Shown here: positions 1-63,814 of the stretch, piece by piece
Position numbering within the stretch: position 1 is the stretch's first letter
Layout of the letters: each line of letters opens with the position of its first letter
From: a virus
DNA: 63,924 nt
Reading direction: 5' to 3' (one strand)
Virus record (IMG/VR): IMGVR_UViG_3300031687_000009
Span: 1 to 63,924 of that record
Notes under the pieces: generated by a model
The model's input: only the letters and a program-made list of their open reading frames with translations
Told to the model about the DNA's origin: nothing
Databases searched by the model: none
Made by a program: the position numbers and the translations under genes

Positions 1-428
1 TTACGATAGACGAAAACTTAACGCTAGGTGATTTTCCTATCATGCACAGTACTGCATCGATAGTAGATACAGAATCTGGTGATCAAATTACAGCATCGTC
101 TGTAGTAGGTATTGATCTTAATCAGAAAGGCATGCAAATGCCTCAGAAGTTTGGTAGCGCATCATCTTATGGCAAGAAATATGCGTTAGGTAATCTATTA
201 CTAATTGACGATACAGCTGACTCAGATGCAACCAATACGCACGATAAGTCTGCATCTAGACAAACGCTTAAAGCTTTGGCAGGAACTGTTGATGCTATTA
301 AGAAACCAGTTGTTGATGCAAGCAATATCGATCAAGCTAAAAAGTTCTTAGCTAATGGAGGTTTGATGAAGACTCTATTAGAGAAGTATACTATAACAGA
401 TGAAACACTAAAAATACTGAATGGATAA
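1..428 (+). CDS. ERF-family single-strand annealing protein (C-terminal part)
   Basis: Single-strand DNA annealing protein that pairs resected strands during phage recombination and DNA repair. The open frame continues upstream of the first internal Met (position 42) to the window edge, so the N-terminus is missing. The core ERF signature is visible: a TIMHSTASI-like strand, then QKGMQMPQKFGSASSYGKKYAL and LLLIDD with a following acidic patch. The gene overlaps the next one, a RecE-like exonuclease, by 8 nt, which gives the classic annealase plus exonuclease pair. Family assignment is by motif recognition; the signature is distinctive, so I am fairly sure. Confidence 0.85.
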   Translation, partial: TIDENLTLGDFPIMHSTASIVDTESGDQITASSVVGIDLNQKGMQMPQKFGSASSYGKKYALGNLLLIDDTADSDATNTHDKSASRQTLKALAGTVDAIKKPVVDASNIDQAKKFLANGGLMKTLLEKYTITDETLKILNG

Positions 429-11553: not shown

Positions 11554-14500
11554 TTATTTTATATTAGATCTTTCCGCATTATTTGCTGCAATTTCCCAAG
11601 GTAATTTAGTACCACCCTCTATATGCATTTTACCTTTATATTCAATTTTACCATTTACTCTAGGATATTTTTGTTTGTTATAATAAACAAAGTTATCGTC
11701 ATAATCTAATTTTCCTGATTTAATTTCTTTTTGATGATGTTTTTCATGTTTAATTACAGCTTTTTTCTGTTCAGGTGGTAAATTAGAATCAACTTCAATT
11801 GTACCATCTTTATTAGCTCTACCAGCTACTCCTTTTGGTAAAGATTTTTTTAATGGTCCAAGATCAAGATCTAGATCTAAATCTAGATCAAGACTAAGAT
11901 CTAATGCAAATTTCTTTTTTTGATTTAAACCTAATTCCCATTTACTCCAACCTAAAGCTAGAAATAATTTTTGCCAAGCTTCAGATTCTTCATTAGCCAT
12001 AGCAGATAAATTTTGAGCTTTTCTAATAACTCTATCTAAAGGAATACCACCAAATGAAGCAGCATTACCAACAATTTCCAAAGCCTTGTTGTCAGGAGAC
12101 AGTTTAAAAGGATCATTTTTAATTTCTTTTTCATTGTATTTATATATATTTCCTATTGCAACTATGTCTTTTAACTTAGTATTAAGAGGTGGTGATATAG
12201 CTGTAGCCTCTAAAGCTATTTTATATGGATTATCAATTTTACCATACTTTTCTTGTTGCTCATTAGCTTCTGCTATAACACTATATATAGCTCCAGCAAC
12301 TGCACCAGGATTACCTAGACTTTTAGCATAAGATGTTAAAGCTCTTTCAACAGATAAAATAGTTTTTTCATCCATTAATTTTTCTTTTTCATCTTCATCA
12401 TCTTCAAATGCTACTGCAAATAAAGCAGTTTGTAAAGCATTAAAAAGCATTGCTTGACCTACGGAATAATATAAAACACTCTGCAAGTCTTGTCTAACTT
12501 TATTACCTCCGCCTTCAGCTGCTGATCTTCCAGATACTACATCTTGTAGTTTTCTTTTTACAATACGAGCATATTGAAAAGGTGTATTTGCAAAAGCGTA
12601 TATAACCTTACCAATTGTACTTGATTGTATTTCAGATATTTTAGAAGGATCAGATGACTGTTGAGATTCTTCAGCTGTTTCAATCCATTTTTGCATTGCC
12701 GCTTTTTTAGCATCAGCTTCACTCATTCCACCTTCAATTAAAGTTTTTAAAGTGTTTCTATAAAAAGCTGCACCACCTAAAGCAATAGCAAAACTATCAG
12801 ACATTCTTGTTGGTAAAAATCCAAATTTAAGTATTTTGTTTAAACCTGTTACATCACCTTCAGACATTTCATCAGCTAATACATCAAACTTAGCACCTTC
12901 TCTTCTGTTTTTTAAATAATCACTGTTCCAAAGAGTATTAAAATCTTTTTTCCAGTCACTACTAAACATTGCACTTGTTGCTTGGAATATGTTATTATTA
13001 GCTTTACCTATAAAATTTAAAGAAGATAACAACTGTAAGACAGCAGATCTAGTGTTTACAAACATAGTAGTTGCTACAGCTCTATTTATCCAATTTAAAA
13101 ACGCATTTGACTGTGCATCCGTACTTACACGGTTTCTACCAGTCTTCATTCTTTGTAATGAATTTTGTAAAGCTTGTCTAAACTTTTTACCATACAAGTT
13201 TTCTATTTCTTGCATGTTATCTTTGTTAAATATATTATCTACATTTTCAGCAAAAGTTTCTAAATGTTTAGCTCTAGTTCCAGAATTAATAGAATCGTAT
13301 ATAGATTTGTTTATAGTAGTATCATTTCTCCATGTAGATTTATATTCTATAGGAAAGTTTTGTTCAATTTGATCAGCAAGAGCTTTTAACTCAGGATCAT
13401 TTTCAACTGCTGACACCAATGCATCTATGTAACTTTGTTTTTCTATATCAACTTCTACTCCGTTTTTAATCCAATTGTAAACTTTAATAGCTTGGCCCTT
13501 ACTGTAAGGTGTACCATCTACTACTTCTTTTAAATCAGATTTAAAACTTTTCATTATTTCAGCAAATTGCTTAGTCTTAGCTAATATTTCAGCTTCGGCA
13601 GCAGCAACACCTCTTGAATAAGGTTCTAATATAGTTGATTGAAAAAACTTTTTAGCTTTTAAGCCAGCTTCTCCACCAGGCAAGAAAGCATAAAGTAATC
13701 CTTTAATGTCTTCTGCATTTGGTGGTATAAACCATCTTGATGGTTTACCTAATCTACCAGTTATAGAGTTTAGTATTTTTCTAAAGTTTCTATTTAATCC
13801 TTCGCCTTGACCTTCAGCTTTTGCTTTTTCTTTTTCAATAGCTTTATTTTGAACTTCTTCTAGTTTTTTATCTAGTTCTTCAGAAGTTTTGTTTTGGTCT
13901 TCTTCAGTATAATTATCAGATTCTTTTAAAGCTTTTATTTTTTTAAGTCTAGCGGCTTCGTTTTGTGCTGCATTTTCTTTAGCTATTAATAAAGCTTTTT
14001 CTGATGGAGTTTTGCCTATTTGTACTTCACTTGTTGTTTTAGCAACAAAATCAGACCACTCTTCAAAAGTCATGATATTTTTAACTGTTGAATAAGATTT
14101 TTTAATAGCTTCTATTAAGTTTTTACTTTCTTTATAAAACTTTTCTAAAGCTTTCAAACCTTGATATTCTGGATTAATAGAAGATCTGTATTCAGGATCA
14201 ACATTTGATCTAGATTTTTTATACCATGTTTTACCTTCTGAATCTTTTAGTTTAGAGAAATTAGACAAAGGATCGCCTGAAACAACTTCTGAAACAGCAA
14301 GATCAATCATTTGATCTAAAGTTAAATCTCCAAAGTTTTTAGTAGTAGGATCAAAGCCTAGCATGTTAGCTAACTCTGTCATATACTTGCTTATGATATC
14401 TTTTATTTGAGCAAGAGTATTTTTGTTAGTTCCTAAAGCTTTAGCACCATAATCTTCTAATATTCTAGCAAATATTTCATTTTCTAATCCAAAAGTATCT

Positions 14501-17500
14501 CCATTGTTATAGTTTTCTATTAAACCAGCGTAAGCAGGATCATTTTTTATCTTATTAAAAACAACATCAAATAATCCAGTTTCTTTAACTCTAGATATTA
14601 TATTATTCCAAACTTCTGGAGCAGAATTAAAAATAACTTGATTCCATACATGACCAGATTCATGAATAGTAGTATTTAAAGCATCTTTTCCTGTTAAATC
14701 TACAAATATTTTACTAGTACCAAGTATTTGAAAACCTAAATTGTTTTTCATGGCATTATCAGCGTCATCGCCTACAACTTCTTCCTCAGCTAATACTTCT
14801 TTTATTCTAGCTTTATCAGTTACTATTTCAAAATCTTGATCACCATTTTTATTCCAATTAGCCTCTAATATAGCGGCTAGACCTTCAGCTGCTTGATCAC
14901 CTGTTTTTTCAGAATCTGCTTTTTCGTTGTATACTTTATCTTTTGCTTTTCCAATTATTCTTTCGGTAGGATCAGCTTTTTCAGTAACAACTTTTTGTTG
15001 TGCTTTTATTAAATCAGGATTAGAATTTATACCATCTAAACCTGCTCCAAAAAATTCAGCTACAGTTTGACCATTACTTAATACTATACTGTTTGCATCT
15101 ATACCACCATTAACATTGTTAACGTTTGCATTAAAATATCTAGCCCATATACTATCAGTCAACATCCATCCTTCTGGAGTTTTGCTTTTATATGAAAAAC
15201 GTCTACCATCTGGCCCGTTTCCAGCTAGTTTATCGTCATTAACATTTAACAAAGCCCCTTGAAAATAATTTTTTTCAATTAAATTAAAATTATCATTTAC
15301 TTTTCCATTTATAGCTTGTCTGAATAAAAATTTAGCTACAGCTGAAGCTGGAAGAGTGTGTTCTTCTGTAAACAAAGCTTTACCTTTAGGATTTTTAGAA
15401 TAATCAAACATTTTACCTTTAGAAGTAAATTTAACTGGAGAAGCTAATCTCATAAAATGACCTTGCCATCCTGAAGAAGACTTTAAAAGACCACCTATTA
15501 CAGCTTTTCTTTGTGCTTGAGTTGAAGGCTTATTATTATTTTCAGGATCTTTAGCAATAAAATCCTCAAATATATTAAAAATTTGTTTTAAAGCTTTTAA
15601 TTTATTTTCTTGTTGTTTTTTAAATTCAGGGTTTTTAAAGTCATTTTCTAATTTAATTTCTCTTCTTCCATTTACAATTTTATCATAACTAGTTGGTGTA
15701 AAAAGATCTTTATATAATTCAGATTCAGCAGCGAAAGGACCATTTTCAGCTATCCATGCGTCTGCATCAGGGGCTGATTTAAAAAACACATGACCTCTAC
15801 GCGTTCTAAGTAAAGAATTTTTAAACTTACCTTTTCCGTTTTTACCATATTCTGGAGGATAAGTAGAAACTTCTTCACCTTTATTGTTTATTTTTGTAAC
15901 AGCTTCAACTTCTCCTCCATTTTTAAGTTGATAAAAAACTATTCCTCCTCTCATTACTGATGAAGGATCTGTGGTTCCGTTGAATTGTCTAAAAAAGCTG
16001 GCTGGAAGTAATTTAGTTAATCCAGTTGATTTTAATAATTTTAAAAAAGTTTGTACTCTTTCTTCGTTATTTAAATTAAAATCTTCAATGCCTTCATTTT
16101 CTAATAGTTTTTTCCAATCTAATGAATTTTCAGCAAAATCTTCTTTTGTTTTTTCTAAACTTTTTTGAAATTGTTCAAATTTAAAAGCAGCTATAGTATT
16201 TTCAAAACTTTGGTTATTTAATTTGCTTTTAGCTATAATAATAGTTTTTTCTGAACTAACATCTTTATTTGCAGCTTTATTTATTTCACTAGCTTCAATT
16301 GGATTAGCTAACAAATATTCAGCTCTAACATCTTCTGCTATTTGAGTTGACACAGCTTCCGCTAAAGCGGCTTTTCTATCGCTAATAACTGATTTTCTGC
16401 TTTTTCTATCTAATGGTATATCTTTTCCTTCATAGTAATCTACAAACTCAGATCTAGTAGGAGCAAACATTGACCATTGTTTAGATATTCCAGTTCCTTT
16501 TTGTCCAGCTTTTTGAGCTAAAAAAGCAGTTGCTAAAGGTTTATAATTTCTATTTAAATAATTAGAAAAATCTTCTTTGGTTTTTGTGTTTTTGCCAAAT
16601 TCTGCTTTTATGTCTTTTACTAATTGGCCATCATATATGCTATCTATAGCTTGTTTAGAAAGAGCTTGCCTTTTCTTAGCGGTTAATTCTTTATTTTTCT
16701 GTAATTCATTTACGGCTTTTTGTAATCCAACTGGTATAATTTTTTTAGCTTTATCAATTATAGCCATCGGAAGCTTAAGTTGATCTGCTAAAAATTTAGA
16801 ACCAATTTTTACTTCAAAGTCATTTTCTTCTTCAACTAATAAATTAGCTGCTTCTGTAGAGTTAAAATCTACATTATTATCTTGAGATAGTACTTTGGTT
16901 GCAGCTCTTTCAACTCTTTTATTTAATTGCTGAGCTATATATGCTGCTATTGGAACACCAGATTCTGGTTTATAAGTTTCTACTAATCTAGCGACACCTT
17001 CAGGGCCATATCTTAATTCACTAGCTAAAGCATCAACATCACCATCATATCGTCTAAACTGAGGCACAGAGTTCAGCTTTTTTATAGCTACACTTCTTAT
17101 TGTACCTTCTTGGGTTTCAACAATGCTATTTAAAGCCTTAACGCCATTAGCATCGTATAGCGATTGAGCTTGTTCAGATAAAACAATACTGTCTTCAGCT
17201 ACTATGCCATCTATAGTTTGTACAGCTTGCTCTGCTTTAACTATTTTTGAATTTATTTCAGATTCTAAATCCGGGTCACCATTCACTATAGCTCTATCTA
17301 AATCATTATATAAATCTACAAGTCTTAAAGATTCATCTTCTCTAAATTGTTGAGTTTTAGATTTTGGTTGTATTCTTGTTTTAGATGCGTTACTTATAGT
17401 GCTTAATTCTTCTTGTTTAGTTGTAAATTGTTCTTCATACGTTTTAACAGCTGCATTTCTTTGCTCTGTGTTTATTACACCATCAGCTAGTTTTTTATCT

Positions 17501-18933
17501 AACTCTGTAACGCCATTACTTATGATATCTACTTCATCTTGTATGACTGCAATTTGATCGATTTCTTTATCTGTTAATTTTGCTGCTTTAGCTTGAGCCT
17601 TTAAAGTAATATCAATAATTTTAGCTTCTTGTATAGCTATACCTTTTTTTATTTCTTTTTTAACCTGTGGATCTGTTGTTGTTGCTAAAGTTTTTCTTAA
17701 CTCAGCTATACTTTGTAAAGCTTGATTTTGCAATACTGTTTCAGCTGGTCCACGTAAAGCTGCTGTAGCTTTTTTAAATTTAATATTTTTTTTACTGTCT
17801 AATGATTTTGATATAGGATCATTACCTGAACCCCTCATTAATCCGCCACCTACAAAACCTTGTAAATAAGACTCTAATCCTTCTTGAGATAAAACAGCGT
17901 CAACAAAAGCTTCTGTTTTATTTTCATCTTTTGCAGAAGCTATATTTACAGCATCTAATCCTGTTTGAGCTAGTTCAGTTAATCCTTCTTTGTTTCCTGA
18001 GAGTAAAACGCTAGTCATAGTTTTTCCTAAACCAGCACCTGTTAACTTTTTAGTCATTAATCTTCCAGCGCCTTTCAACCCAGCACGCTCTAAAAGACCA
18101 CTTACAGTTCCTACAGTGGCAGCGGTTGTTATATCATCTTCACCATCTCTTATTAGATCAGATAAAGTTTTGCCTTTTTGTTTAGCAACTTCTTCATTAT
18201 AATCTATGTAAGATCTACCTATCATGTCTGGAATCAATCCTCCTCCAAGAGTAAGTGTGTTTATTGCAGCTGAAGATCCTATCGATGTTATACCATTGAC
18301 TATACCAGCGACTAATTCACCTGAACCTTTCATTATTTCACCTTTACCTAAAAGCTTTAAACCTTCCGTTATTGATCCAACCTCACCCATTTCAGCTTCT
18401 TCAAGTTTAGATTGTTGTATGGCTTCATCAAGATCTTTTTCAGAAAGTCCTTCTTTAAAAAATTCAGGAATATTTTCGTTTTTTAACCAAGATTCAACTG
18501 CTTCATCTCCAAAAATACCTCTGTATATTTTATTACTAGCAACTGTTAAATTTGGTAGAAATTGTTGAAATGAATTTGCTACATTTTTAAATATACTATT
18601 AACTATTTTATCACCAGAAGATAATTCTTTTAATTCAGGTTGTCCAGTTTCAGGGTTTATTTTAACTTGGCCTGTTGAATCATCAATAACATATTGATCA
18701 CTTAATGTTTCTTGAGTTTTAGCTTCTATCTCATCAGCTTGTCTTGCTTCTCTTTCTTCATATGTTTCGTTTCTTTCTATATCTTCTCCAAACAATTGTC
18801 CAAAGAAACCTTTAGCTGGATCTGTATTAACAGGGTTACCAAACTCATCGAGCTCTTCTTCCTCTTTGTCAGGAGTATAAAAATCATCCATGCTAGCAAC
18901 TGGAACGTTTGTGTAGTCGAATTCTTCTTCCAT
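11554..18933 (-). CDS. Giant internal virion (ejection) protein with two HExxH zincin motifs
   Basis: A 2459-aa protein, the largest in the window. The N-terminal part has acidic repeats and Gly/Ala-rich stretches that may insert in membranes (about 190-370). The middle is long, helical and coiled-coil-like. A metalloprotease motif TTIHESGHVW lies near residue 1422. The later region NTPFQYARIVKRKLQDV resembles internal virion proteins of marine podoviruses. A Leu-Asp repeat (LDLSLDLDLDLDLDLG) near 2350 precedes a second zincin-like motif IKHEKHHQKE near 2397, followed by LPWEIAANNAE, where a third zinc ligand Glu often sits. Likely ejected into the cell envelope, where proteolysis may help DNA entry. 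No RNA polymerase motif was seen. Confidence 0.75.
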   Translation of the reverse strand: MEEEFDYTNVPVASMDDFYTPDKEEEELDEFGNPVNTDPAKGFFGQLFGEDIERNETYEEREARQADEIEAKTQETLSDQYVIDDSTGQVKINPETGQPELKELSSGDKIVNSIFKNVANSFQQFLPNLTVASNKIYRGIFGDEAVESWLKNENIPEFFKEGLSEKDLDEAIQQSKLEEAEMGEVGSITEGLKLLGKGEIMKGSGELVAGIVNGITSIGSSAAINTLTLGGGLIPDMIGRSYIDYNEEVAKQKGKTLSDLIRDGEDDITTAATVGTVSGLLERAGLKGAGRLMTKKLTGAGLGKTMTSVLLSGNKEGLTELAQTGLDAVNIASAKDENKTEAFVDAVLSQEGLESYLQGFVGGGLMRGSGNDPISKSLDSKKNIKFKKATAALRGPAETVLQNQALQSIAELRKTLATTTDPQVKKEIKKGIAIQEAKIIDITLKAQAKAAKLTDKEIDQIAVIQDEVDIISNGVTELDKKLADGVINTEQRNAAVKTYEEQFTTKQEELSTISNASKTRIQPKSKTQQFREDESLRLVDLYNDLDRAIVNGDPDLESEINSKIVKAEQAVQTIDGIVAEDSIVLSEQAQSLYDANGVKALNSIVETQEGTIRSVAIKKLNSVPQFRRYDGDVDALASELRYGPEGVARLVETYKPESGVPIAAYIAQQLNKRVERAATKVLSQDNNVDFNSTEAANLLVEEENDFEVKIGSKFLADQLKLPMAIIDKAKKIIPVGLQKAVNELQKNKELTAKKRQALSKQAIDSIYDGQLVKDIKAEFGKNTKTKEDFSNYLNRNYKPLATAFLAQKAGQKGTGISKQWSMFAPTRSEFVDYYEGKDIPLDRKSRKSVISDRKAALAEAVSTQIAEDVRAEYLLANPIEASEINKAANKDVSSEKTIIIAKSKLNNQSFENTIAAFKFEQFQKSLEKTKEDFAENSLDWKKLLENEGIEDFNLNNEERVQTFLKLLKSTGLTKLLPASFFRQFNGTTDPSSVMRGGIVFYQLKNGGEVEAVTKINNKGEEVSTYPPEYGKNGKGKFKNSLLRTRRGHVFFKSAPDADAWIAENGPFAAESELYKDLFTPTSYDKIVNGRREIKLENDFKNPEFKKQQENKLKALKQIFNIFEDFIAKDPENNNKPSTQAQRKAVIGGLLKSSSGWQGHFMRLASPVKFTSKGKMFDYSKNPKGKALFTEEHTLPASAVAKFLFRQAINGKVNDNFNLIEKNYFQGALLNVNDDKLAGNGPDGRRFSYKSKTPEGWMLTDSIWARYFNANVNNVNGGIDANSIVLSNGQTVAEFFGAGLDGINSNPDLIKAQQKVVTEKADPTERIIGKAKDKVYNEKADSEKTGDQAAEGLAAILEANWNKNGDQDFEIVTDKARIKEVLAEEEVVGDDADNAMKNNLGFQILGTSKIFVDLTGKDALNTTIHESGHVWNQVIFNSAPEVWNNIISRVKETGLFDVVFNKIKNDPAYAGLIENYNNGDTFGLENEIFARILEDYGAKALGTNKNTLAQIKDIISKYMTELANMLGFDPTTKNFGDLTLDQMIDLAVSEVVSGDPLSNFSKLKDSEGKTWYKKSRSNVDPEYRSSINPEYQGLKALEKFYKESKNLIEAIKKSYSTVKNIMTFEEWSDFVAKTTSEVQIGKTPSEKALLIAKENAAQNEAARLKKIKALKESDNYTEEDQNKTSEELDKKLEEVQNKAIEKEKAKAEGQGEGLNRNFRKILNSITGRLGKPSRWFIPPNAEDIKGLLYAFLPGGEAGLKAKKFFQSTILEPYSRGVAAAEAEILAKTKQFAEIMKSFKSDLKEVVDGTPYSKGQAIKVYNWIKNGVEVDIEKQSYIDALVSAVENDPELKALADQIEQNFPIEYKSTWRNDTTINKSIYDSINSGTRAKHLETFAENVDNIFNKDNMQEIENLYGKKFRQALQNSLQRMKTGRNRVSTDAQSNAFLNWINRAVATTMFVNTRSAVLQLLSSLNFIGKANNNIFQATSAMFSSDWKKDFNTLWNSDYLKNRREGAKFDVLADEMSEGDVTGLNKILKFGFLPTRMSDSFAIALGGAAFYRNTLKTLIEGGMSEADAKKAAMQKWIETAEESQQSSDPSKISEIQSSTIGKVIYAFANTPFQYARIVKRKLQDVVSGRSAAEGGGNKVRQDLQSVLYYSVGQAMLFNALQTALFAVAFEDDEDEKEKLMDEKTILSVERALTSYAKSLGNPGAVAGAIYSVIAEANEQQEKYGKIDNPYKIALEATAISPPLNTKLKDIVAIGNIYKYNEKEIKNDPFKLSPDNKALEIVGNAASFGGIPLDRVIRKAQNLSAMANEESEAWQKLFLALGWSKWELGLNQKKKFALDLSLDLDLDLDLDLGPLKKSLPKGVAGRANKDGTIEVDSNLPPEQKKAVIKHEKHHQKEIKSGKLDYDDNFVYYNKQKYPRVNGKIEYKGKMHIEGGTKLPWEIAANNAERSNIK

Positions 18934-60993: not shown

Positions 60994-61158
60994 TTGTTAA
61001 TGTTTTAAATATAGGAGTATTGTGTAATATATATGTATCTAGTAATCAGATGATTAGAAAAGTCATATCTTATTATGCCCCCATATCAATAGTATATTGT
61101 TGATTTCATTGCGTATTTGACAGATAACATACAATTCTATTATCGTATTGACAATCGT

Positions 61159-61382
61159 ATGTCAATGTGTCATGTATTATTCATTGATATCATCCAATCA
61201 TTATCATATTATCATTATATAGCTATATCGTTATGTTATTATCATATATGTATACATATCGTTAAGACATTGATATGTATTGTATTGTATATGTCATTGT
61301 GTCATAGTTATATTAATATAATATAGTATTTGGTTATGACATAGTGTCATGATATATATATAGTTATATGACATTGTGTCAT
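61159..61382 (+). repeat. Four iteron-like 15-mers, consensus ATGWCAWWGTGTCAT
   Basis: Copies at 61159-61173 (ATGTCAATGTGTCAT), 61291-61305 (ATGTCATTGTGTCAT), 61336-61350 (ATGACATAGTGTCAT) and 61368-61382 (ATGACATTGTGTCAT). The last two are near-palindromic (ATGACA/TGTCAT with a 3-nt centre). A half site TGTCAT follows at 61391. Repeated same-orientation binding sites between divergent operons fit an origin (initiator iterons) or an operator; which one cannot be told from sequence. Confidence 0.7.
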
Positions 61383-61502
61383 ATGATTGATGTCATTATC
61401 ATATTGTCGATATATCTCATTATATCTATGAGATTATTATATATATAGTATTATAGTGCAATATATTCAAAAAGGGACATTTTATATATATGTTATAATA
61501 AA

Positions 61503-61540
61503 GTACGTTACAAAGTGTATATTAATGTGATAATATATAT
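61503..61540 (+). promoter_or_regulatory. Early promoter copy 1
   Basis: TACGTTACAA at 61504 and GTGATAATATA at 61527, start-to-start distance 23. Read as sigma70-like: TTACAA, 17 nt, TAATAT. It lies 20-25 nt upstream of the ATG at 61562 and is identical in layout to three further copies. Confidence 0.82.
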
Positions 61541-61561
61541 GAATATAATAATATAAATACT

Positions 61562-61804
61562 ATGAAATACAATAAAATATATAATTTAATAAAAAATGAC
61601 TGTGAAGAATTATATCACGTGAATGATTGTGAAAACTTTCTAGAAGAAAATGAATTAGATTTAAATTGGTTTTCAAAAAATGAATATATAATATTCTCTA
61701 ATATATGTACAAATTATAATAATGTTATAAAAACATTAAACAATAATAAAATTAAATTTAATGAATATGAAGATTATTTAAATTTAAAATATATAATTGT
61801 ATAA
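61562..61804 (+). CDS. Hypothetical early protein, 80 aa
   Basis: An acidic, Asn/Tyr-rich protein (MKYNKIYNLIKNDCEELYHV; FLEENELDLNWFSKNEYI). No membrane span and no family recognised. It sits alone behind its own promoter copy, so it is probably made on its own immediately after infection, as with small host-takeover proteins. The next promoter copy starts at its stop. Confidence 0.6.
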   Translation: MKYNKIYNLIKNDCEELYHVNDCENFLEENELDLNWFSKNEYIIFSNICTNYNNVIKTLNNNKIKFNEYEDYLNLKYIIV

Positions 61805-61805
61805 A

Positions 61806-61843
61806 GTACGTTACAACTCACATATAAATGTGATAATATAAAT
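61806..61843 (+). promoter_or_regulatory. Early promoter copy 2
   Basis: TACGTTAC at 61807, GTGATAAT at 61830, again 23 apart. The spacer forms a perfect inverted repeat (TCACAT, 4 nt, ATGTGA; 61818-61833), so the element could also be an operator. It drives the gene at 61863. Confidence 0.82.
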
Positions 61844-61862
61844 GAATATAAAAATAATATAA

Positions 61863-62066
61863 ATGCAAAAACTTAAAACAAATCACTACAAATCACAATT
61901 GATTTTCACTAAAAAACTAACTAAAAATAATATTTCTTATTACGGTTTTAAATTAAATGAATTAATAGATTTTAAATTATACAAATTAGATTATGACTTT
62001 CAATTTAAAGGTTTAACATTTATAAGTGATGAAAAATTAAGCGAAAGTTTATATATAAAAAGATAA
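61863..62066 (+). CDS. Hypothetical early protein, 67 aa
   Basis: Basic N-terminus (MQKLKTNHYKSQLIFTKKLT), then a beta-rich body with YYGFKLNELIDFKLYK. Expressed from promoter copy 2, with the third copy beginning just after its stop. No family recognised. Confidence 0.58.
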   Translation: MQKLKTNHYKSQLIFTKKLTKNNISYYGFKLNELIDFKLYKLDYDFQFKGLTFISDEKLSESLYIKR

Positions 62067-62073
62067 TAATAAA

Positions 62074-62111
62074 ATACGTTACAAATCATATTAATGTGTG
62101 ATAATATAATG
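62074..62111 (+). promoter_or_regulatory. Early promoter copy 3
   Basis: TACGTTAC at 62075 and GTGATAAT at 62098, 23 apart. It lies upstream of ATG 62132. The spacer shares AATGTG with copies 1 and 2. Confidence 0.82.
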
Positions 62112-62131
62112 TAAGTAAAAATAATAATAAT

Positions 62132-62272
62132 ATGATAGTAACAGTAAAAAGTAAAGATAATTATAAAATAGATGTGACGAGATTATATCTTCAAGCATTA
62201 GAGAAAACTATAAGTGTAGAAGACTACAAAAAAGAATTAGATTTAATAACAAGTAATAATAAAAATATATAA
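62132..62272 (+). CDS. Hypothetical early protein, 46 aa
   Basis: The ATG lies 27 nt after the -10-like box of promoter copy 3. The peptide is MIVTVKSKDNYKIDVTRLYL then QALEKTISVEDYKKELDLIT, a plausible small alpha/beta fold. It ends one base before the next ATG. Placement behind the promoter supports it. No family recognised. Confidence 0.62.
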   Translation: MIVTVKSKDNYKIDVTRLYLQALEKTISVEDYKKELDLITSNNKNI

Positions 62273-62273
62273 T

Positions 62274-62507
62274 ATGAATGATATAAAAAATGTAAAGCGC
62301 TTTGTGATAAGTGTAAAAGGTATAGAAAATAAACAAGTATGTGTGTTTATAAATAAAAAAGGTGTTGAGTATAAGTACGATCAAAGTGTAGTATTCAATC
62401 AATTAAAAGAAAAGTTTGAAAAAATGAATTGTTGGACAAAGTATAAAACTTATACTAATACAAATAACTTACCAACTTTCGTTAAAGCTTTAAATAGCTT
62501 AGTATAA
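62274..62507 (+). CDS. Hypothetical early protein, 77 aa
   Basis: MNDIKNVKRFVISVKGIENK, then CVFINKKGVEYKYDQSVVF, a beta-strand pair followed by helices (FNQLKEKFEKMNCWTKYKTY). It shares the operon of the 46-aa gene, starting two bases after its stop. No family recognised. Confidence 0.58.
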   Translation: MNDIKNVKRFVISVKGIENKQVCVFINKKGVEYKYDQSVVFNQLKEKFEKMNCWTKYKTYTNTNNLPTFVKALNSLV

Positions 62508-62557
62508 TAAAAGAATAAGGTGTTGAAGTGTGTTCTTTCCTTAAACGAACAGACAAT

Positions 62558-62628
62558 TGAGTGAACGGTTAGCAAGGTTAAATTCCTTAGTTAAATGGGA
62601 AATAAAGGTTCGATTCCTTTCCGCTCTA
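62558..62628 (+). tRNA. tRNA-like element or tRNA 3'-half (uncertain)
   Basis: The 3' part is a textbook T-arm, AAAGG-TTCGATT-CCTTT (62604-62620), followed by CCGCTCTA, fitting a 7-nt acceptor strand plus discriminator with no encoded CCA. Upstream sequence contains GGTTA-type D-loop words and an AAGG-TTAAATT-CCTT hairpin (62574-62588), but I could not fold a complete cloverleaf: the best 5' acceptor candidate (62558-62564) has two mismatches. It may be a degenerate tRNA, a tRNA fragment (attachment-site relic), or a non-canonical RNA. Confidence 0.35.
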
Positions 62629-62641
62629 CTAAATAATAAAT

Positions 62642-62797
62642 ATGAATAAAATAGAAAAGAAATTATTAAACAAAGTGTTTAATGACTATATATATAACTA
62701 TTGTTATAAAGATAAGAAACCAAATGAATTTAAAAGTGATGTAGAACACAAAATAGTAAGTGATATATGTGACTTTATGAAAAAATATAAAATATGA
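62642..62797 (+). CDS. Hypothetical 51-aa early protein
   Basis: A frame of 51 codons, MNKIEKKLLNKVFNDYIYNY then CYKDKKPNEFKSDVEHKIVS, helical and basic. Its TGA overlaps the next ATG (ATGA). It lies just after the tRNA-like element. The overlap supports translation. No family recognised. Confidence 0.55.
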   Translation: MNKIEKKLLNKVFNDYIYNYCYKDKKPNEFKSDVEHKIVSDICDFMKKYKI

Positions 62798-62988
62798 CAG
62801 AGAAAATGATGAGTGAAAAACTGCTTAAAATAGCAGAGTTCGAAAAAGAATATGGCGAAGATCATGGTATTACAAACGTAATAGCTATGAAGAAATATTG
62901 TAGTGACAAACAATATAGAGAAAGAGTACACGCTTTTAATAAAGCAAGTGCTAATACAATTAAATATTATAAATTATTCACATGTTAG
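62794..62988 (+). CDS. Hypothetical 64-aa early protein
   Basis: Charged helical protein (MTEKMMSEKLLKIAEFEKEY; ITNVIAMKKYCSDKQYRERV). It starts in an ATGA overlap with the previous gene and overlaps the next by 7 nt. No family recognised. Confidence 0.58.
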   Translation: MTEKMMSEKLLKIAEFEKEYGEDHGITNVIAMKKYCSDKQYRERVHAFNKASANTIKYYKLFTC

Positions 62989-63566
62989 AAAAATTAAAAC
63001 CACTAAGAAGTACACCAACAGGTATATATTTCCGTATGGCAGATGGTCGTATCGGTTACGCTAATCACCAATATGCTCGAGTGAGTGTCACTCGCGAAGG
63101 AATTAGAAATGGTCAATATTACAAAGAAGATTGTAGTATCGGCGATAGAATGTATCAAATAAATACAAGAATTAATTATCCTCACCACGAAACATCAAGT
63201 ATAAACATGATAGGTAGAGTGAGATATAATGATATTAGCGAAGCGATTAACGCTTTACAAAATTTTAACTGTAAAAACTGTGGTGAATACGCTGTAGAAT
63301 TACGTAAAAATAAAATTATAAAAGAATATAACGAGCACAAAGCTTTAAATATTCGCTCTGTATTAACAAGAGATGAAGACGAAGCATACAATCGAGGTCA
63401 TGATGACGGTAGAGAAAATGGTTATAGTGACGGTAGAGAATTTGGTTATAGCGAAGGTTATAAAATGGGCAAAGAAAATGGCTATGAAGATGGTTATAAC
63501 GAAGGTTTTAGCGAAGGTGTTATTTCAGTCGAAGAAAAATTAAATAAATTATTAAATACATTATAA
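62982..63566 (+). CDS. Early protein with C-terminal GY(x)xG repeat
   Basis: A 194-aa protein. The N-terminal half is beta-rich with STPTGIYFRMADGRIGYANH; a CxxC (NCKNCGEY) sits near residue 97. From about residue 138 to 181 there is a short-period repeat, DDGRENGYSDGREFGYSEGY then KMGKENGYEDGYNEGFSEG, with Gly every fourth residue and aromatic-Gly steps, followed by a short terminal helix. Such Y/F-x-x-G spacing favours a thin, regular helical or stacked structure. Function unknown. Confidence 0.62.
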   Translation: MLEKLKPLRSTPTGIYFRMADGRIGYANHQYARVSVTREGIRNGQYYKEDCSIGDRMYQINTRINYPHHETSSINMIGRVRYNDISEAINALQNFNCKNCGEYAVELRKNKIIKEYNEHKALNIRSVLTRDEDEAYNRGHDDGRENGYSDGREFGYSEGYKMGKENGYEDGYNEGFSEGVISVEEKLNKLLNTL

Positions 63567-63775
63567 TGAATAAAGAAGATAAATCAATTTTAAAATATGC
63601 ACTTAGTATAGATGAAAAAGGTAGAGTAACACCATTAGAATTTGCTTCATGGTTAAGACAATCACTAGATATAGAAGCAGAAAACTTATTTGGTGAATTT
63701 GGTTTTGCTACATTAACAAACGACGAACAAAATCTTTGCTTTGCAGAAGTATATGAAAAAGGATTGATTGAATAA
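63566..63775 (+). CDS. Hypothetical 69-aa early protein
   Basis: An acidic helical protein (MNKEDKSILKYALSIDEKGR; LRQSLDIEAENLFGEF) whose ATG overlaps the previous stop (TAATG). It has no Cys/His cluster except one Cys. It is followed by promoter copy 4. No family recognised. Confidence 0.58.
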   Translation: MNKEDKSILKYALSIDEKGRVTPLEFASWLRQSLDIEAENLFGEFGFATLTNDEQNLCFAEVYEKGLIE

Positions 63776-63776
63776 A

Positions 63777-63814
63777 ATACGTTACAAAACAAAATAGTTT
63801 GTGATAATATATAT
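63777..63814 (+). promoter_or_regulatory. Early promoter copy 4
   Basis: TACGTTAC at 63778 and GTGATAAT at 63801, again 23 apart. The spacer carries a different inverted repeat (ACAAA ... TTTGT; 63784-63802). ATG follows at 63834. Recurrence 2 kb away from copies 1-3 shows that the element is dispersed through the early region. Confidence 0.82.

Follow-up and report, generated by a model that had tools for sequence, protein, structure and literature searches.

Genome context and the four sites

The stretch analysed here (hereafter the window; 63,924 nt, IMG/VR record IMGVR_UViG_3300031687_000009) is a podovirus-like genome with a minus-strand structural module and a plus-strand early/replication module. 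For TerL and portal, named relatives were identified at 27–62% identity, among them MW202828, Maribacter phage Panino, the Flavobacterium elemo phages, Cellulophaga phi38:1/Calle (Pervagoviridae) and others. No DNA similarity between the window and phage records was detected, and Rfam and tRNA searches returned nothing. The window begins inside an ERF-like gene and ends in a small cysteine-rich gene, just after the last of four short sites. The relevant features are given below; sigma groups are described in the third section.

1..428, + strand: 3' part of the ERF-like gene, truncated by the contig start
421..1152, + strand: next gene after the ERF-like one, probably an exonuclease, judging by its place and sequence; used as the synteny anchor beyond the gap in which the sigma gene should lie
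61450..61492, + strand: conserved block ATTATAGTGCAATATATTCAAAAAGGGACATTTT upstream of copy 1, also found before the first promoter in relatives with group-A sigmas
61504..61541, + strand: putative promoter copy 1 (TACGTTACAA 61504-61513, GTGATAAT 61527-61534, predicted +1 G 61541)
61562-61804: ORF after copy 1, 80 aa
61807..61844, + strand: putative promoter copy 2 (GTGATAAT 61830-61837, predicted +1 G 61844)
61863-62066: ORF after copy 2, 67 aa
62075..62111, + strand: putative promoter copy 3 (GTGATAAT 62098-62105, predicted +1 G 62111)
62132-62272: ORF after copy 3, 46 aa
63778..63815, + strand: putative promoter copy 4 (GTGATAAT 63801-63808, predicted +1 G 63815)
63834 onwards: ORF after copy 4, small, cysteine-rich, truncated by the contig end

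The element TACGTTACAA-N13-GTGATAATATA occurs four times between 61504 and 63808, always on the plus strand and nowhere else in the window. Written as TACGTTAC-N15-GTGATAAT, all four copies are exact (starts 61504, 61807, 62075 and 63778), with box starts 23 nt apart in 4/4. The four copies and the invariant step of the preliminary description were thus confirmed, and no shuffled sequence equalled the match count: with three mismatches allowed, the window yielded only two extra matches (0.8 expected in all) and 0/100 shuffles reached six. Scored with a weight matrix built from 93 copies of the element, the four sites gave 38.8–50 bits and no other site in the window exceeded 8 bits. Each copy also precedes a separate small ORF, as had been described (ATG at 61562, 61863, 62132 and 63834), with 25–27 nt between the end of the -10 box and the ATG. 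Copy 1 lies within a divergent intergenic region, and copies 2–4 start 2–9 nt past a stop codon (3 nt for both copy 2, after the ORF at 61562-61804, and copy 4, after the ORF at 63566-63775).

Numbering from the first T of TACG as 1, GATAAT occupies positions 26–31. In an alignment of 134 sites from relatives, covering all -35 variants (dialects, see below), position 38 was a purine in 134/134 and position 37 a pyrimidine in 87%. This YR step, 7 nt after GATAAT, sits where a sigma70-type -10 element at positions 26–31 puts +1, and under this predicted start positions 3–8 form the -35 hexamer with a 17-nt spacer. The +1 predictions listed above derive from the same alignment. By sequence, the YR spacing is exact in three of the four window copies; in copy 3 the TG lies one base nearer than in copies 1, 2 and 4. 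Predicted leaders in the window are 19–21 nt.

Flavobacterial sigmaA promoters carry TAnnTTTG at -7 (PMC9723704). This element, with TTG ~19–21 nt upstream, was absent at all four sites. The window has few matches to the host consensus, most of them intragenic. A search before copy 1 gave no clear host promoter, and candidate host-type promoters at or before the four sites were rejected, none being consistent. The preliminary description was therefore right that the family is not of the Bacteroidetes TTTG/TAnnTTTG type; it is specific to one phage group. Several near-identical, co-oriented, bipartite sites thus stand before genes and are missing from the rest of the genome. Sequence comparison gives us high confidence that they would form a promoter array, and an uncultured flavobacterial phage very probably uses them as such.

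Conservation of the element across relatives

A scan of the phage and its relatives for the bipartite element, as the preliminary description had proposed, returned only the four sites in the window and ~30 IMG/VR contigs with 1–9 copies each, in a single orientation and within a few kb. The exact pattern was present in 47 IMG/VR stretches and a stricter TACGTYRCAA form in 34, nearly all seemingly from one phage group. Bacterial genomes contained just eight single, scattered matches in 257 Gb, and the element was not seen as a regulon among 85,000 bacterial and archaeal genomes. The gap between boxes was 13 nt in 84/86 box pairs from relatives, exact TACGTTACAA boxes were paired at +23 in 65 of 69 cases, and the consensus was AAA(A/G)TACGTTACAAA-N12-GTGATAATATAA.TG. 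The distance from the -10 box to the ATG had its mode at 24–28 nt. Many copies inside genes, which had been named beforehand as evidence against a promoter family, were not found: only 5/122 promoters in relatives lay inside an ORF.

The sequence of the spacer varies freely. Inverted repeats had been noted there, and the arms are literally present in copy 2 (TCACAT/ATGTGA) and copy 4 (ACAAA/TTTGT). Across 85 distinct copies, stems averaged 2.87 pairs compared with 3.00 in shuffled spacers, and stems of at least five pairs occurred in 5.9% of copies compared with 4.6%. A functional spacer stem was rejected on these grounds and an operator is not supported; chance is the best account of the repeats in copies 2 and 4, since stems are no longer than in shuffled spacers. 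The earlier suggestions were reading by a phage-modified polymerase, or a sigma70-like site doubling as an operator; the geometry is sigma70-like, and the reader is narrowed below to, most likely, a phage-encoded sigma70-family factor.

Variant sites in L165/L210 (G017) and L003 carry ACGATAAT or TCGATAAT in place of GTGATAAT, and one spacing is 1 base shorter. In L165, L215, L225 and L229, one conserved promoter copy (at ATGAAAAATACG) overlaps the open frame ATGAAAAATACGTTACAA...; either a later ATG at the usual distance is the true start, or the promoter and the N-terminus (MKNTLQ...SDNIS) would share the same DNA.

Sigma genes and -35 dialects in relatives

A sigma70-like protein is encoded downstream of several sites in one relative (G017, L165). 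All 12 aligned proteins of this kind matched phrog_351 'RNA polymerase sigma factor', and their profile matched SigA/RpoD regions 2 and 4 (E 6e-15); matches to regions 2/4 in Pfam were weak. The AlphaFold model was mediocre (pLDDT 68) and its best PDB matches were sigma factors, weak except in region 4, which the C-terminal domain fits at 1.8 Å. Scanning relatives revealed 48 sigma loci. A promoter array on the sigma strand was present in 19 of the 21 loci having at least 6.5 kb upstream, the exceptions being L245 (about four similar sites by eye) and L249 (looks rearranged), and no array was found on the opposite strand of sigma loci. In relatives the sigma gene lies ~2–3 kb downstream of the last array copies and is followed, after a few hundred nt, by the ERF-like gene. 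Sigma gene and array were both present or both absent in nearly all genomes checked. Named cultured relatives had no sigma (eight in one search; six in another, with four matching positive controls) and no array, and de novo array searches in elemo, phi38:1 and MW202828 were likewise negative.

No sigma gene was found in the window itself. In relatives that retain both anchors, the homologues of the two genes at the window's ends (e.g. L210, L215, L217, L225, L228 and L229), sigma lies between the anchors, shortly before the ERF-like gene, and in L215, L217 and L225 the anchors are 4.3–4.7 kb apart. For this reason, the ~4.4 kb missing between the contig ends should, by synteny, hold this phage's sigma gene, which would account for its not being visible in the preliminary description. 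An exact search gave no contig bridging the gap, and this region is missing from the contigs whose TerL is closest.

Group-A and group-B sigmas, both within the TACGTTACAA clade, share only ~27% identity (23–30%) compared with 58–81% for the flanking genes, and the promoter is unchanged between them. Either the array fixes sigma specificity while the remainder of the protein evolves quickly, or the sigma factor is not the sole reader. Group-A sigmas are without the usual region 2.4/3.0 signature (RRAI..TIRIPE). Directly after sigma in L215 (9811-10161) lies a gene for a 116-aa protein that, among the loci compared, occurs only with group-A sigmas; it is a possible sigma partner or anti-sigma.

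A systematic search of the sigma loci revealed several -35 dialects: T1 (TACGTTACAA), T1b (TACACAACAA), T2 (TTACAAA-N2-AAATACGA), T3 (ACGGACTTA) and T4 (TTCGAA-N3-TAATACGA). All retain GATAATATA and the purine, with the -10 GATAAT and the geometry constant. In G042, for example, TACGTTAC is missing, and seven sites of the ACGGACTTA type keep the 24-nt step between ACG and GATAA; G049 has TTCGAA-N3/4-TAATAC before GATAAT. Weak T1-like sites at late operons were absent from the window, G022 and G026 (none above 8 bits). In the sigma tree, T1/T1b formed one well supported clade and T2–T4 the other; the tree included 22 loci without an assigned dialect, and clade structure alone was used, not group statistics. 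Dialect thus follows sigma clade, both being confounded with phage phylogeny. The recognition-helix positions that we take to be equivalent to RpoD R588/Q589 are basic (KK, RK, RR) in the T1 clade and S/Y then Q/E elsewhere. That this difference tracks dialect is suggestive only, since phylogeny alone could yield the pattern. The T2 and T4 dialects have an extra box at ~-27 to -22, where sigma70 usually makes no contacts, which hints at a further protein.

Each phage lineage seems, from these comparisons, to have its own private gene-start signal. We consider the chances evenly balanced that a large uncultured family of flavobacterial podoviruses shares one arrangement, in which every lineage pairs a sigma of its own with ~4–9 matching promoters that amplify it. 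The pair would have drifted through at least 4–5 -35 dialects with a fixed -10, geometry and gene order, and sigma would be among the module's faster-changing genes.

Reading of the array and its alternatives

The sites would be promoters of sigma70 geometry, with TACGTTACAA as the -35 region, a ~17-nt spacer, a -10 GATAAT and a purine start 6–7 nt downstream, and would start the small genes heading the plus-strand (early) module of a podovirus-like Flavobacteriia phage. We infer from the comparisons above that the most likely reader is host core RNA polymerase with a sigma70-family factor encoded by the phage, and we think it probable that such a factor reads the array. With the array pointing towards the sigma gene, the loop would probably be self-amplifying. 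Since relatives have the sigma gene itself downstream of their arrays, the sites may belong to a delayed-early or middle class of promoter that boosts sigma synthesis.

Several features could also be explained by a phage activator of the T4 MotA/AsiA kind, which would bind the box at -37 to -28 and bring in host holoenzyme, with the host sigma opening GATAAT and the phage sigma-like protein serving other (late) promoters. The -35 box, at 10 nt, is longer than the sigma70 hexamer and varies by lineage while the -10 is constant, the T2 and T4 dialects have their additional upstream element, and the promoter stays the same despite the divergence of sigma subgroups A and B. However, no small dialect-tracking protein with a recognised DNA-binding fold was noticed in the (non-exhaustive) module table, GATAAT departs from the TAnnTTTG that hosts have at -7 (PMC9723704), and the joint presence or absence of sigma gene and array argues against a separate reader, making an activator unlikely. 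Reading of the array as immediate-early sites by host RNA polymerase with a primary or alternative host sigma, leaving later genes to the phage sigma, would suit its position at the very start of the plus-strand module, the place expected for immediate-early promoters, and production of the first phage sigma requires some reader. Yet TAnnTTTG is missing at -7, the window matches the host consensus at few places, mostly in genes, the element forms no regulon in the 85,000 bacterial and archaeal genomes and the dialects differ among related phages, so that we regard this account as improbable.

Virion-packaged RNA polymerase is known from the crAss-like phage phi14:2. The structural genes here are distantly crAss-like (a weak muzzle-domain match) and the virion module includes a 2459-aa protein, which gives some ground for a polymerase of this type reading the sites. 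A simple pattern scan of the window, however, found no RNAP-like DxDGD-type motif (the 2459-aa protein has DxDxD-like strings, which have no diagnostic value), and the bacterial sigma70 spacing and YR step fit a holoenzyme instead; such a reader is very improbable. The chance that the sites are an operator, an origin or other DNA sites rather than promoters is slighter still: they are short repeats in an AT-rich region and two spacers happen to form inverted repeats, but their strict orientation, fixed distance to the ATG, -10-like box, YR step and lack of spacer-stem excess all point the other way.

A phage-encoded sigma factor reading such an array would have known counterparts. The sigmas of podoviruses phiEco32 (gp36) and 7-11 (gp47) direct host core RNA polymerase to a few conserved promoters, with starts 6–9 nt from the element; the two proteins are 15% identical and their promoters dissimilar (PMC8948821, PMC4331800). 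The likeness lies in a podovirus that probably has its own sigma, together with a small set of conserved putative promoters. In phiEco32 and 7-11, however, the sigma promoters serve middle/late genes, whereas here the array heads the early module and reads towards sigma, many lineages share geometry and -10 with distinct -35 dialects, and the probable host is a flavobacterium. The kind of system is therefore known, and what would be new is its occurrence in flavophages, an array directed into the gene for its own sigma, and the dialect series. Phage sigma-like proteins with cognate promoters also provide temporal control in the SPO1 gp28 cascade and through T4 gp55, the latter requiring gp33/gp45; as far as we know, their promoter boxes differ from this element. 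To our knowledge, few transcription programmes have been worked out for marine flavophages. If correct, this reading would give them a defined phage regulon with a likely master regulator, and the dialects would constitute a natural series for sigma/promoter co-evolution. With the same -10 and spacing, a changed -35 and a changed sigma region 4, both co-evolution and private, host-independent promoters become testable, and the series is a possible source of orthogonal sigma-promoter pairs for Bacteroidota. The sigmaA promoters that drive genes in the presumed hosts differ in having TAnnTTTG at -7 (PMC9723704), whereas in the phage element GATAAT occupies -12 to -7 and TTTG is missing.

Other features were observed around the array and elsewhere in the genome. 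Just upstream of the first promoter, phages with group-A sigmas carry the block ATTATAGTGCAATAT..TT.AAAAAGGGACATTTT (window 61450-61492, L211, L215, L217, L031 and L045) and group-B phages TATATATTACATAAA...AAAAAGGTATAATTTT; the block before the first promoter is no clear match to a host promoter. The divergent region also has, within 225 bp (61156-61383), four palindrome-like TGACATWGTGTCA elements, two perfect and two with 1–2 mismatches, found nowhere else in the window at the same stringency. Their count is within chance and their clustering notable, and the cluster is a candidate operator. Similar TGTCA pairs precede the arrays in L231, L252 and L007. The 2459-aa virion-module protein (11554-18933) had no Pfam, PHROG or phage-record match and has homologues of ~2200–2600 aa in relatives. 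At 62982-63566, a 194-aa protein has tandem GxxDG/GYxEG-like repeats in its C-terminal half (weak Yae1_N match). Finally, the non-coding stretch at 62518-62632, unrecognised by ARAGORN and Rfam, contains a tRNA-like T-arm (GGTTCGATTCC), and L036 has a stretch with the same start (GGTGTTGAAGTGTGTT..CCTTAAACGAACAGAC).
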